Assembly: GCF_020215665.1 (NCBI RefSeq)
Contig: NZ_CP084061.1
Location: forward strand, 1,736,001-1,800,000
DNA from: Blautia parvula
GTDB lineage: Bacteria > Bacillota > Clostridia > Lachnospirales > Lachnospiraceae
Length of the DNA: 64,000 bases
Direction of reading: 5' to 3'
How positions within the stretch are numbered: the stretch's first letter is position 1; each line of letters begins with the position of its first letter. The translations under genes were made by a program, and so were the position numbers. Shown here piece by piece: positions 4,327 through 17,461 of this stretch. The notes below the pieces were generated by a model. The model did not search any database, was not told the DNA's origin, and saw only the letters and a program-made list of their open reading frames with translations.

Positions 4327-6369
4327 TCAGTGGTGTGCGTGATGCTCTTCCACTGCAACGTCTTTGCATACTCTCTCGATCATATCTTCATCTGCAAGGT
4401 ACGGCATGGTGATGTAATCCTGCCCTTCCCTTGTCTTGTTGTACTCTGCTACGGTCTCGATGGAGTGCTCGCATCTTCCCCAGCTCCTTCTCGATACACC
4501 GATCATGGTATCCCACGGGATCGCTGCCCGTAAGATCTCGTCCACTCTCTCGCTTCCGTCCAGCACCATTCCGAATCCTCCGTTGATGGATTTGCTGATG
4601 CCGACTCCGCCTCCGTTGTGCAGGGCTACCAGGCTCATTCCCCTGGCTGCGTTTCCTGCATAGCAGTGTACTGCCATGTCCGCTGTGATGTTGGATCCGT
4701 CATAGATGTTGGAGGTCTCTCTGTACGGAGAGTCTGTTCCGCCTGTGTCGTGGTGGTCACGGCCCAGCATCACCGGTCCGATCTCTCCCTTCCTTACCAT
4801 CTCGTTGAACTTCAGCGCGATGTCCCTTCTTCCCAGGGCATCCTGGTACAGGATACGGCACTGGGTGCCCACTACCAGTTTGTTCTTCTCCGCGTCACGG
4901 ATCCAGATGTAGTTATCCCTGTCCTGGCTCCTTCTGTTCGGGTCGATCACTTCCATGGCTGCATGGTCTGTGGCACGCAGGTCCTCCGGCTTGCCGGACA
5001 GACAGCACCAGCGGAACGGGCCGTATCCGTAGTCAAACAGCTCCGGTCCCAGGATATCCTCCACATAGGATGGGAAGATGAATCCTTCGCTTGTGTCCAC
5101 GCCGTTCTTGGCGATGTCCTTTGCTCCCGCATCGAACACGGCACGCATGAAGGAGTTTCCGTAATCGAAGAAGTAGGAGCCTCTCTCCACCAGGGTCTTG
5201 ATCAGGTGGTAGTGTTTTACCAGGGTCTGGTCCACCAGCTCGCAGAATCTCTCTTTATCGTTTGCCAGCATCTCCGTGCGCTCCTCAAAGGTCAGGCCCT
5301 GCGGGCAGTAGCCTCCGTCGTACGGCACATGGCAGCTTGTCTGGTCAGATAACAGCTCTATCTTGATGTTGTTGTCCACTGCGTACTGCAGCAGGTCAAC
5401 GATGTTTCCGTGGTACGCAATGGATACGGTCTCTTTCTTCTCCATATATTCCTCTGCCACACGGAACGCCTCAGCGGCATCCTCGATCACCAGGCTCACC
5501 CAGCCCTGGCTGTGGCGGGTCTCGATACGGGAGGCATCCACCTCTGCTACGATACCCACTCCTCTTGCGATCTCTATGGCTTTTGGCTGTGCACCGCTCA
5601 TGCCGCCCAGGCCGCTCGTAACGAACAGATGGCCTGCCAGGTCCCCGTCCTGCGGTACGCCTAAGAACTTACGTCCTGCATTCAGGATAGTATTAAAGGT
5701 TCCGTGCACGATGCCCTGCGGGCCGATGTACATCCAGCCGCCGGCTGTCATCTGTCCATAGGAGGATACGCCCATGGCTGTGGCCTTTGCCCAGTCCTCC
5801 GGGTTGTCGAACATTCCCACCATCAGGCCGTTGGTCACGATGACACGGGGGCTGGTCTTGTGGGATTTGAACAGGCCCATGGGATGGCCGCTCATCATCA
5901 CAAGGGTGTGCTCGTCTGTGAGCTCCTCCAGGTATCTCTTGATGAGCTGGTACTGCATCCAGTTCTGGCATACCTGGCCGGTCTCTCCGTATGTAACAAG
6001 CTCGTAGGGGTAAAGGGCAACATCATGGTCCAGGTTGTTGTCGATCATGACCTGGAATGCCTTTCCTTCCACACATTTTCCTTTATATTCATCGATCGGT
6101 CTTCCGTAGATCCTTTCCTTCGGCATGAAACGGTATCCGTAGATACGTCCTCTTGTCAGAAGTTCGTCTAAAAATTCCGGTGCGAGCTGTTCGTGCAGCT
6201 CTTCCGGCACATATCTGAGGGCGTTTGCTACCGCCAGTTTGATCTCTCTTTTGTTCAGGGTCAGCTCTCTTTTCGGGGCTCTTCTGACACCTTCTTTAAA
6301 GGTCGGGTACTCCGGCAGAACGGGATCCAGTTTGATTACCATTGCTTTTCCGATTTCCGCATTGTTCAT
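4327..6369 (-). CDS. hutU: Urocanate hydratase family protein (candidate thiourocanate hydratase)
   Basis: This 680-residue cytoplasmic urocanase-family protein belongs to the long form found in Clostridia and Bacteroidetes. Urocanases add water to urocanate with a tightly bound NAD+. Family motifs are clear: YGQMTAGGWMYIGPQGIVHGT, DQTSCHVPYDGGYCPQGLTFEER, YGYGPFRWCCLSGKPEDLR, and HYAGNAARGMSL-like segments near the C terminus (read here as HCYAGNAARG). The canonical GSW is GGW here. The gene has its own consensus promoter and ends the cluster. No imidazolonepropionase or formiminoglutamate enzyme is nearby. A lyase homologue without MIO and a betaine-type transporter are in the same cluster, so I infer that thiourocanate is at least as likely a substrate as urocanate. 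Sequence alone does not decide. Confidence 0.88.
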   Translation of the reverse strand: MNNAEIGKAMVIKLDPVLPEYPTFKEGVRRAPKRELTLNKREIKLAVANALRYVPEELHEQLAPEFLDELLTRGRIYGYRFMPKERIYGRPIDEYKGKCVEGKAFQVMIDNNLDHDVALYPYELVTYGETGQVCQNWMQYQLIKRYLEELTDEHTLVMMSGHPMGLFKSHKTSPRVIVTNGLMVGMFDNPEDWAKATAMGVSSYGQMTAGGWMYIGPQGIVHGTFNTILNAGRKFLGVPQDGDLAGHLFVTSGLGGMSGAQPKAIEIARGVGIVAEVDASRIETRHSQGWVSLVIEDAAEAFRVAEEYMEKKETVSIAYHGNIVDLLQYAVDNNIKIELLSDQTSCHVPYDGGYCPQGLTFEERTEMLANDKERFCELVDQTLVKHYHLIKTLVERGSYFFDYGNSFMRAVFDAGAKDIAKNGVDTSEGFIFPSYVEDILGPELFDYGYGPFRWCCLSGKPEDLRATDHAAMEVIDPNRRSQDRDNYIWIRDAEKNKLVVGTQCRILYQDALGRRDIALKFNEMVRKGEIGPVMLGRDHHDTGGTDSPYRETSNIYDGSNITADMAVHCYAGNAARGMSLVALHNGGGVGISKSINGGFGMVLDGSERVDEILRAAIPWDTMIGVSRRSWGRCEHSIETVAEYNKTREGQDYITMPYLADEDMIERVCKDVAVEEHHAHH

Positions 6370-6409
6370 CTCTCATCTTCTCCTTTTCCTGTTTATTACA
6401 TCGAATCTT

Positions 6410-6438
6410 TATATAGACTTTACCATACAGTTAGTCAA
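6410..6438 (-). promoter_or_regulatory. Promoter of the hydratase gene
   Basis: On the minus strand TTGACT (6433-6438) and TATATA (6410-6415) are separated by exactly 17 bases, 41 bases before the ATG. Just upstream a GCGTC-TTCTTC-GACGC hairpin (6444-6459) could be an operator or a weak terminator of the preceding regulator gene. Confidence 0.6.
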
Positions 6439-6517
6439 GAAAGCGTCGAAGAAGACGCCGAAACTATTAAAATTTTGTGAATTATCAACTATTTTTGCCT
6501 TAATTTCGTCGAATTTT

Positions 6518-16057: not shown

Positions 16058-16917
16058 TATCTGCCCGCCTCCTCTTCTGCCCTGCGAAGGTCATCCAGTA
16101 TCTGGTCAATGACCCCGAAAGCGGCTGATTTTTTATAATGCTTTGACGGCCGGTTCGGAATATTCTCCTCTATCTGGGCGTACACAGCATCCCGAATCTT
16201 TTCCTCGTCACAGCCGGAAAGTGTCTGTCCCTCCAGACACGCTTCAATCAGACGGGCACGGCCCGCTTTTGCGCCCACGGCCCCCAGATATACTACAGGG
16301 TGCATCATACATCCCTCTTTTATCTCTGTACAGATACAGCCGTTTATCTTTGAAATGGTAACTGCTTTTCTGGCACCTACTTTTGCAAATGCTGAAAGCA
16401 CATGCTGTTTCTTCACAATAAACTTAAGGATGACTTCTCTTTCTCCCAGGGTGGTCTTCTCCAGGCCTTCCACAAAATCATCCACCAGACGTTTTGTCAC
16501 TGCACCTGTCCCGTCCAGAATCTCTGCCTCTGCGCCATAGGCAAGCAGCACCGGGGTAGTATCTGAACTCTGGGATGCGTTTGCCACATTTCCTCCCAGG
16601 GTGGCCCGGTTCCTGATCTGGGTGGAGCCTACCATGGATGCGGCCTTAGAAAGAGCCGGTATCCATGTCCTGACAAGGGGACTCTGTTCCAGCTCTGTCA
16701 TGGTGACACCTGCGCCGATGATCACGGAATCCTCTGTCTCTGTGATCTGTGACAGCTCCGGCAGATGTGTCAGGTCAATCAATGAATAATGAAATTTTTT
16801 TTCTTTTCTCAAGTGGATGACAAGGTCTGTTCCCCCTGCGCAGAGATAAGTATTCTCATCTTTTTCCCTGAGGGCAGCAGCCAGTTCATCCAGATTTTGC
16901 GGTATTCGGAAACTCAC
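16057..16917 (-). CDS. Molybdenum hydroxylase FAD-binding subunit
   Basis: This 286-residue medium subunit (CoxM/XdhB type) passes electrons from the iron-sulfur subunit to FAD. FAD-binding motifs are LCAGGTDLVIHLRK (about 26-39) and TQIRNRATLGGNVANASQSSDTTPVLLAYGAEAE (about 95-128). The CO dehydrogenase flavoprotein C-terminal domain follows (YLGAVGAKAGRARLIEACL). The start overlaps the small-subunit stop by 4 bases (ATGA). No 4Fe-4S insertion of the hydroxybenzoyl-CoA reductase type is seen. Confidence 0.93.
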   Translation of the reverse strand: MSFRIPQNLDELAAALREKDENTYLCAGGTDLVIHLRKEKKFHYSLIDLTHLPELSQITETEDSVIIGAGVTMTELEQSPLVRTWIPALSKAASMVGSTQIRNRATLGGNVANASQSSDTTPVLLAYGAEAEILDGTGAVTKRLVDDFVEGLEKTTLGEREVILKFIVKKQHVLSAFAKVGARKAVTISKINGCICTEIKEGCMMHPVVYLGAVGAKAGRARLIEACLEGQTLSGCDEEKIRDAVYAQIEENIPNRPSKHYKKSAAFGVIDQILDDLRRAEEEAGR

Positions 16918-17378
16918 TTGATTTCCCCCTCTCCCACGGCATTCACAGCCTTCACGATTTTCTCATACCCTGTACAGCGGCACAGATTTCCCTCGATGGC
17001 TCTCTTGATTTCCTCCACTGTGGGGTGGGGATTCTCATAGAGCAGTGCCTTACAGGACAATATCATACCCGGTGTGCAGAAACCGCACTGGACAGCTCCC
17101 ATCCGGATAAACGCCTTCTGCAGCGCGTCCAGCTCACCGTTTTGTTCCAGTCCCTCAATGGTGGTGATCTCCCGGTCCATGACCTGGCCTGCAAAGACCG
17201 TACAGCTTGTCACAGCTTTTCTGTCCAGCAGTACCGTACAGGCACCGCATTCTCCCTCGCTACAGCCCTCCTTCACACCGGTCAGTCCGCAGTCCTCACG
17301 CAGAAAATCGAGCAGACGTTTTGTCGGCTCTGTCTCTTTCTCTATCTGTTCTCCGTTGATCATACATCTGAGCAGCAT
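16914..17378 (-). CDS. Molybdenum hydroxylase [2Fe-2S] subunit
   Basis: This 154-residue small subunit (CoxS/XdhC type) carries two [2Fe-2S] clusters. The plant-ferredoxin cluster motif is GCSEGECGACTVLL, with the fourth Cys in VTSC; the second cluster is QCGFCTPG plus NLCRCTGYEKIVKAV. I chose the ATG at 17378 because GAGAGG lies 8-12 bases upstream. An ATG at 17447 would read through the ribosome site and add an implausible basic tail. It is the first gene of the catabolic operon and lies just behind the SARP-type promoter. Confidence 0.93.
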   Translation of the reverse strand: MLLRCMINGEQIEKETEPTKRLLDFLREDCGLTGVKEGCSEGECGACTVLLDRKAVTSCTVFAGQVMDREITTIEGLEQNGELDALQKAFIRMGAVQCGFCTPGMILSCKALLYENPHPTVEEIKRAIEGNLCRCTGYEKIVKAVNAVGEGEIK

Positions 17379-17461
17379 TCTATTCACCCTCTCCTGCTTT
17401 TTTCTTATATCTTTTACGCCTCTTTGTGCGTTTTTCAGTCTGTCCATTGTCTGATGAGTCT

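Follow-up and report, generated by a model that had tools for sequence, protein, structure and literature searches.

A gene cluster of Blautia parvula predicted to degrade ergothioneine by way of an ergothionase-type lyase, a candidate thiourocanate desulfurase and a twin urocanase

Ergothioneine is a dietary antioxidant, and its breakdown by bacteria has been described in several forms. Feng et al., in JACS (doi 10.1021/jacs.4c09350), reportedly found a reductive xanthine-oxidase homolog in gut ergothioneine catabolism, and Zhou et al. in 2025 are said to have observed ergothioneine breakdown by Clostridium symbiosum with cross-feeding of thiourocanic acid. In Burkholderia, a thiohydantoin route has been described. 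The accessible part of one text states that, in ergothioneine catabolism, a xanthine-oxidase homolog of the gut breaks an aromatic C-S bond by reduction (PMC12771579), and the accessible part of a 2026 paper citing the same work names a thiourocanate desulfhydrase that releases hydrogen sulfide (PMC13405746). In the present study, we analysed a stretch of 64,000 nucleotides of the Blautia parvula genome (G000), namely positions 1736001-1800000 of its single 6.25-Mb contig (C1), which is called the window. At 4327-17447 it carries nine minus-strand open reading frames (ORFs), and we consider it likely that this cluster degrades ergothioneine anaerobically, via desulfuration to urocanate and a histidine-type fermentation. 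The kind of system is already in print, and its activity in this organism is predicted from sequence.

In the predicted route, the BCCT transporter would import ergothioneine. The lyase, given its 49% identity to a characterised ergothionase, would eliminate trimethylamine and leave thiourocanate, and the molybdenum enzyme XdhABC, to judge by its position, its conservation and the published gut enzyme, would convert thiourocanate reductively to urocanate and sulfide. The clustered urocanase, a second HutU, would hydrate urocanate; HutI, FtcD and an FchA-like protein encoded about 40 kb away would carry the product on to glutamate, and the methylaspartate pathway of the hut operon would ferment it. 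A SARP-like regulator would switch the cluster on at a direct-repeat operator. The predicted products are trimethylamine, sulfide and those of glutamate fermentation, and one chromosome holds two ergothionase-type lyases together with a complete predicted route from ergothioneine.

This locus resembles each of the described systems in part. XdhABC is of the same family as the gut reductive xanthine-oxidase homolog and is encoded here with an ergothionase-type gene, the two enzymes being compared by description only (PMC12771579, accessible part). The ergothionase of Treponema denticola (PDB 6s7j) is similar to the window lyase over the full length, also lacks the triad of the 4-methylideneimidazole-5-one (MIO) group and falls in the same clade, but only 49% of residues are identical and the window lyase has N-T-G at one motif. 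Clostridium symbiosum is likewise a gut anaerobe, with ergothionase activity observed there and predicted here; its thiourocanic acid feeds another species, whereas one Blautia genome appears to hold the whole route (PMC13405746, accessible part). Histidine degradation by the Hut pathway has HutU, HutI, FtcD and an FchA-like gene downstream in common with the Blautia route; it is entered by HutH, in contrast to the MIO-less trimethylamine lyase and desulfuration predicted here. The thiourocanate-hydratase route is expected to share the first product, and its model (NF058530) has no match over the cut-off in the window or in the 12 genomes compared below.

The best solved relative of the window lyase is 6s7j, matched with 522.6 bits over nearly the full length; the second best, a probable histidine ammonia-lyase (HAL), reaches 251.5 bits. 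The window lyase scores 351.3 with the HutH model (TIGR01225) against a cut-off of 539.15, and where MIO enzymes have GSVGASGD it has GSVGEA-D, with the MIO triad missing. In a tree of 27 lyases it stands with 6s7j within a clade of 12 (support 99/99), and a MIO-less group of 20 is separated at 100/100 from four MIO enzymes and three lyases of a GSVGYL type. Residues that include E145 and K386 (E142 and K383 of 6s7j) are invariant in all 16 ergothionase-type sequences and replaced in all four MIO sequences; the E145 position varies among more distant MIO-less lyases. When aligned with the T. denticola enzyme, as the first-pass annotation had proposed, the window lyase shares E145 and K386 and departs from it at N-T-G versus N-R-G. 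That annotation had seen here a HAL-fold lyase without MIO, related to ergothionase and releasing trimethylamine. The altered motif bears out the lack of MIO, the identity to 6s7j and the joint clade support the ergothionase type, and trimethylamine release is supported as the predicted first step by the likeness to ergothionase. The window lyase is predicted to convert ergothioneine to trimethylamine and thiourocanate.

The grouping of these genes is conserved. The comparison drew on 12 Bacillota genomes that carry the lyase: six are Blautia, five more come from the class sample and one comes from the phylum sample. Less similar lyases do not enter this count; their identity is 43-49% for the b-type in G000, G305 and G311 and the c-type in G304, 33% for a single lyase in G302, and about 30-32% for further ones. 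The b-type lyases sit with another xanthine dehydrogenase (XDH), and the c-type with a BCCT gene and no XDH. An xdhA ortholog was present in the lyase locus in 12/12 genomes, adjacent in 11 and with one gene between in G939, and a BCCT gene in all but one, the exception being a 6-kb contig. The xdhC gene was seen in 10 loci (in G304 via frame translation) and not found in that of G467. The contig of G671 begins inside xdhB and its xdhA is covered to 65%, and the xdhA match in G311 contains one stop. Six of the 20 Blautia genomes searched have a lyase that is at least 80% identical; in all six the xdhB, xdhA, lyase and BCCT genes lie together, and these six are also the only ones with an xdhA ortholog of at least 70% (Fisher p 2.6e-5, a value that ignores relatedness and linkage). 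In the XdhA tree, the sequences of the lyase loci make up a single clade (100/99) that excludes the 13 further Blautia XDH genes included; the program warned of long branches meeting elsewhere in this tree. Three groupings appear in both the lyase and the XdhA tree: Blautia by itself, Blautia joined by G671 and G538, and G423 paired with G467. These results agree with the earlier proposal that the set is one functional unit, and the xdhA-lyase pair may serve metagenomes as a better marker than the lyase alone.

The lyase type itself is patchy. Counting the genome of the window, it occurs in 6/20 Blautia (lyase of at least 80%), 1/299 of the family, 6/391 of the class and 2/398 of the phylum sample, the family sample being drawn almost one per genus. 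A scan of named genome contigs gave three loci, all Blautia, on contigs that also occur as parts of G311, G302 and G300. The named relatives that turned up are Blautia metagenome assemblies with lyases 80-84% identical, so that the host, first read as a gut-type Clostridium, belongs to the genus Blautia. Searches of plasmids returned lyase homologs of at most 40.5% and xdhA homologs of at most 35.6% identity, and two plasmid lyase loci that were inspected had no annotated XDH gene near the lyase in a gene table that is incomplete.

The role of the molybdenum enzyme depends on the identity of the urocanase. NCBIfam has separate models for urocanate, thiourocanate and S-methyl-thiourocanate hydratases, and the window urocanase passes the HutU model (TIGR01228, 435.9 against 375) and misses those of the thiourocanate (NF058530, 294.4 against 930) and S-methyl-thiourocanate enzymes (NF058531, 351.5 against 880). 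With a urocanase that is HutU and has a twin serving in the hut operon, the route needs a step from thiourocanate to urocanate; XdhABC is the candidate for this step, and by analogy it most likely removes the thione sulfur reductively. It belongs to the xanthine-oxidase family and is encoded with an ergothionase-type lyase, a description that reportedly fits the desulfurase of Feng et al. The first-pass annotation had instead proposed ring hydration and oxidation, in which the urocanase hydrates thiourocanate and the molybdenum enzyme oxidises the product. This order of events, which is that of the thiohydantoin route in Burkholderia, draws on the urocanase domains that are common to both hydratases, and it is now very unlikely: NF058530 is missed widely, no gene exceeds its cut-off in the 12 lyase genomes (top score 717.9, in G939, with 994.5 for HutU), and the urocanase gene is almost identical to that of the hut operon, so the reading of it as a thiourocanate hydratase was rejected. 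The solved relative 6uek (681 aa), tried as a thiourocanate hydratase, is deposited as a urocanate hydratase and is presumably the Trypanosoma cruzi enzyme. HutU exceeds its cut-off in 11/12 genomes, the remaining one being G300, where the urocanase is cut by the contig end. The xdhA gene of G939 is followed directly by a HutU gene, which scores 784 against 375 (thiourocanate model, 636 against 930). In G302 a single hutU was found; the cluster regulator gene lies on its strand and stops about 2.4 kb upstream of it, and the interval contains small ORFs and a 463-aa ORF. That XdhABC oxidises an intermediate, for instance by hydroxylating the ring, is scarcely credible. Most named solved relatives of XdhA are indeed oxidative (xanthine dehydrogenase, aldehyde oxidase, CO dehydrogenase), but the best-scoring one, the alpha subunit of 4-hydroxybenzoyl-CoA reductase at 221 bits, is a reductive family member, the downstream enzyme HutU takes urocanate, and the published gut enzyme is reportedly reductive (PMC12771579, accessible part).

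If hercynine (histidine betaine) or a related betaine were the real substrate, the lyase would give urocanate directly, HutU would suffice for the urocanate so made, and the molybdenum enzyme would be unrelated or act on a side substrate. The departure of the window lyase from the characterised enzyme at N-R-G is in keeping with this, as is a more distant lyase of G304 that lies beside a BCCT gene without an XDH gene. However, a sulfur-free substrate would not obviously need xdhA, whose ortholog is in the locus in every lyase genome and was not found in the 14/20 Blautia without a lyase of at least 80%, and we regard hercynine as an unlikely substrate. Several observations weigh against ergothioneine desulfuration by this cluster. 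The window lyase has N-T-G, just after a conserved tyrosine, in place of the N-R-G of the T. denticola ergothionase and several others (the T is found also in the G423 and G467 lyases). Among the solved relatives of XdhA none is named a desulfurase, and its orthology with the published desulfurase is that of a candidate. A second ergothionase-type lyase (C1:1197685-1199211) belongs to the same lyase clade and lies beside a different XDH-type enzyme, so that either locus may be the one serving ergothioneine.

The second lyase is part of a run at G000:C1:1197685-1205299 (L018 9685-17299) that also has a BTAD regulator and a divergent XDH. It is 51% identical to the T. denticola enzyme and 49% to the window lyase, and its XDH belongs to another clade, at 29% identity to the window XdhA. 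This locus is kept in G305 and G311.

The second hutU copy lies outside the window at C1:1698570-1700612, about 40 kb off, and differs from the first by 7 of 2043 nt and by one residue. By blastn the copies are 99.37% identical over 2068 bp, a segment that ends at the stop codon and includes 25 bp upstream of the ORF. Such twins are present in three Blautia genomes, 42-46 kb apart; within a genome they differ by 7, 12 and 4 nt, and across genomes by 131-160 nt. Across roughly 80% of its length, the region from one copy to the other is collinear with those of G304 and G305, and the copies are at the same junctions. Of 225 variable hutU sites, 203 are genome-specific (common to both copies of a genome), and no site tells the two loci apart in all three genomes. 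This pattern is concerted evolution, most simply accounted for by gene conversion after one old duplication; a separate recent duplication in each species is less likely, given the collinearity, the shared junctions and the 203 sites against none. Such homogenisation is an argument that the same activity is required of the enzyme at both loci.

In the first-pass annotation HutI, HutG and FtcD were said to be absent. This holds within the window for HutI and FtcD, both of which are encoded elsewhere on the chromosome, at C1:1696364-1698546, adjoining the second urocanase; HutG was not searched for. The second urocanase heads a gene run in which the next two genes pass the imidazolonepropionase and glutamate formimidoyltransferase models. 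It continues with an FTCD_C-domain (FchA-like) protein under the FchA cut-off, citrate-lyase-type genes (CitD and CitF pass their models, CitE falls short), methylaspartate mutase S and the accessory protein GlmL. The following genes have G305 counterparts read as methylaspartate mutase E and methylaspartate ammonia-lyase (the latter partly covered and under the cut-off), which were found in G000 by tblastn at 99% and 98% identity. By its gene content, the hut operon is the predicted route from urocanate to glutamate and methylaspartate fermentation. By analogy with the established pathway, its citrate-lyase-type genes would encode citramalate lyase, and citC and citXG beside the cluster are probably maturation genes of the citrate-lyase-type enzyme of this operon. 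The citC gene is at the same place in 4/5 other Blautia genomes, the exception being G300.

Upstream of xdhC we found the direct repeat TTTCAACG-N3-TTTCAACG, 9 nt before a -10-like hexamer when counted from the 8-base unit. It is the only exact 8-base repeat in the window with an 11-bp period and such a hexamer 9 nt on. The same layout, with at most one mismatch, occurs in 6/6 Blautia promoters, and in Markov shuffles of four promoter regions a match of this quality at that spacing arose in 0.3-1.2%. Under a relaxed rule (one mismatch, 8-10 nt spacing) the window has 10 matches, overlapping registers included, so that only the exact form is rare. For comparison, SARP sites have been described as two direct repeats at 11 bp with the 3' repeat 8 bp before the -10 (PMC4393881, accessible part), and BTAD, AAA and TPR domains make up the large-SARP layout (PMC10972967, accessible part). 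The regulator matches BTAD with 28.7 bits over 22.1, together with AAA_16 and TPR, and no N-terminal OmpR-like DNA-binding domain was listed in the Pfam search at E 0.001. The SARP-like regulator probably activates the cluster at the direct-repeat operator before xdhC, binding at 17477-17495 being predicted from the motif. A terminator-like stem of 16 pairs (9615-9577) stands in front of the regulator gene. The second ergothionase locus of G000 has a related, weaker repeat with 8-nt spacing before its XDH genes, and the matching promoters of G305 and G311 gave no repeat match. A sigma-70 scan returned 27 sites against 16.0 (sd 4.0) in shuffles, which says little on single sites, and its list does not include a promoter-like site seen by eye before hutU. 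In G305 (L063), about 80 bp with an inverted-repeat look are inserted between the operator and the xdhC start; the insertion is absent in G000 and G304.

Selenium may be involved as well. Downstream of the lyase in G423 lie genes encoding YqeB, a fusion of YqeC and MocA, an XdhC-like protein and a protein with a molybdenum-cofactor domain, and in G939 modA, modB, YqeC, MocA-like, XdhC-like and YqeB genes adjoin BCCT and lyase, the MocA-like and XdhC-like ones under their cut-offs. The accessible part of a paper on difficile was drawn on for these selenium-molybdenum genes (PMC11448449). Because such maturation genes adjoin the cluster in G423 and G939, we tentatively propose, as a possibility that is more doubtful than probable, that the desulfurase is a selenium-dependent molybdenum hydroxylase acting reductively, whose labile-selenium cofactor strips sulfur from an aromatic thione; if true, ergothioneine use by gut anaerobes depends on selenium. 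YqeB matches occur in 11/12 lyase genomes (10 over the cut-off), against 48/391 of the class sample (47 over). Within the class sample the figures are 6/6 lyase genomes against 42/385 (over the cut-off, 5/6 against 42/385), a comparison that ignores relatedness. The YqeB match of G671 is split in two and stays under the cut-off, and in G311 there is no match. Shared ancestry may lie behind the excess, with 13 of the 48 positives of the class sample in one family. The YqeB gene of G000 (TIGR03309, 305.4 bits, cut-off 220; C1:2166804) is about 0.4 Mb from the cluster and near another XDH gene, and XdhA does not reach the model of Se-dependent XDH (TIGR03311, 303.2 against 830.45); both points speak against a selenium enzyme.

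Our comparison suggests that the new elements are the homogenised twin urocanases in three species, the SARP-type operator in the Blautia promoters and the selenium-molybdenum genes beside the cluster in two lineages. None of these three is mentioned in the titles, abstract openings and passages searched, a body of text that subscription papers largely lie outside.

Table 1. Genes and sites of the cluster and its divergent neighbours (window coordinates)
Feature	Position	Strand	Evidence
Urocanate hydratase (HutU), second genomic copy	4327..6369	-	Three urocanase domains; TIGR01228 over cut-off
Duplicated segment, hutU ORF plus 25 bp upstream	4327..6394	-	blastn against hut operon copy
Large SARP-like regulator (BTAD + AAA + TPR), predicted operon activator	6518..9553	-	Pfam
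HutD-like protein	9630..10214	-	PF05962, 85.6 bits
118-aa ORF	10183..10539	-	No Pfam match
BCCT betaine-type transporter, predicted ergothioneine/betaine uptake	10578..12185	-	PF02028, 378.5 bits
Ergothionase-type MIO-less HAL-fold lyase	12292..13788	-	PF00221, 431.8 bits; 6s7j best solved relative
Molybdenum-binding subunit (XdhA-like), predicted thiourocanate desulfurase	13790..16057	-	Pfam Mo-domains
FAD subunit (XdhB-like)	16057..16917	-	PF00941
[2Fe-2S] subunit (XdhC-like)	16914..17378 (ORF extends to 17447)	-	PF01799
Predicted SARP-type operator, TTTCAACG-N3-TTTCAACG	17477..17495	-	With TACAAT -10-like hexamer at 17462-17467
CitC, lyase ligase; divergent neighbour	17584..18630	+	TIGR00124, 334 over 262
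CitX-CitG fusion, lyase prosthetic-group synthesis	18471..20087, real start within ORF	+	TIGR03124, 142.4 over 105.25; TIGR03125, 254.9 under 272.3

The ORF list and the Pfam search agree with the earlier count of nine minus-strand genes including a urocanase, a HutD-like protein, a BCCT transporter, the lyase and a molybdenum enzyme, and the PF02028 match fits the uptake of a quaternary amine, as had been proposed for a trimethylammonium compound (Table 1). The genes for the molybdenum enzyme overlap by 4 nt (xdhC/xdhB) and 1 nt (xdhB/xdhA), and xdhA is separated from the lyase gene by 1 nt. The xdhC gene probably starts at the ATG at 17378 rather than at 17447, because G304 has a stop codon at the position of 17447 and the ribosome-binding-like AGGAGAGG stands before 17378. 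The 118-aa ORF has a counterpart of 87% identity in L007; in other Blautia loci it was not seen or was masked by the ORF filter, as in G304 and G305, and the HutD of G305 was masked by the ORF overlap filter. No Rfam match was obtained within the window.

Other lyase and urocanase loci were seen on the same chromosome and elsewhere. At G000:C1:1709406-1725785 (L016, L017) there are two HAL-fold lyases with GSVGYL, in which the MIO triad is deleted. Other genes of the same run encode two MTTB-family methyltransferases, two aconitase-X pairs, Ldh_2, a sodium:solute symporter and a BTAD regulator. The two lyases form their own clade with the G538 lyase (100/99), and the run resembles a further pathway for betaines or methylated amines. 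A more distant MIO-less lyase lies near an ornithine-cyclodeaminase-family gene in Blautia G304 and on a Polaromonas plasmid (L069 9353-13550, L077 11974-15703); the G304 copy also has a BCCT gene and no XDH. Both group with a Sinorhizobium lyase (96/90) and possibly act on a different betaine substrate. A third urocanase of G000 (C1:5805039-5812006; L020 7039-14006), 59% identical to the window urocanase, lies in a run with a MIO-type HAL and with flavin-oxidoreductase-like and transporter-like genes, the last two named by eye. It is present also in G304 and G305 and possibly belongs to another histidine or urocanate route.

In two genomes a 657-aa chemoreceptor adjoins the XDH-lyase genes (L073 14605-16578; L074 14145-16118). 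That of L073 combines OpuAC, a glycine-betaine-type binding domain, with MCPsignal, and that of L074 has sub-cut-off matches to choline-binding and chemoreceptor models. Possibly these receptors direct chemotaxis towards ergothioneine or betaines.

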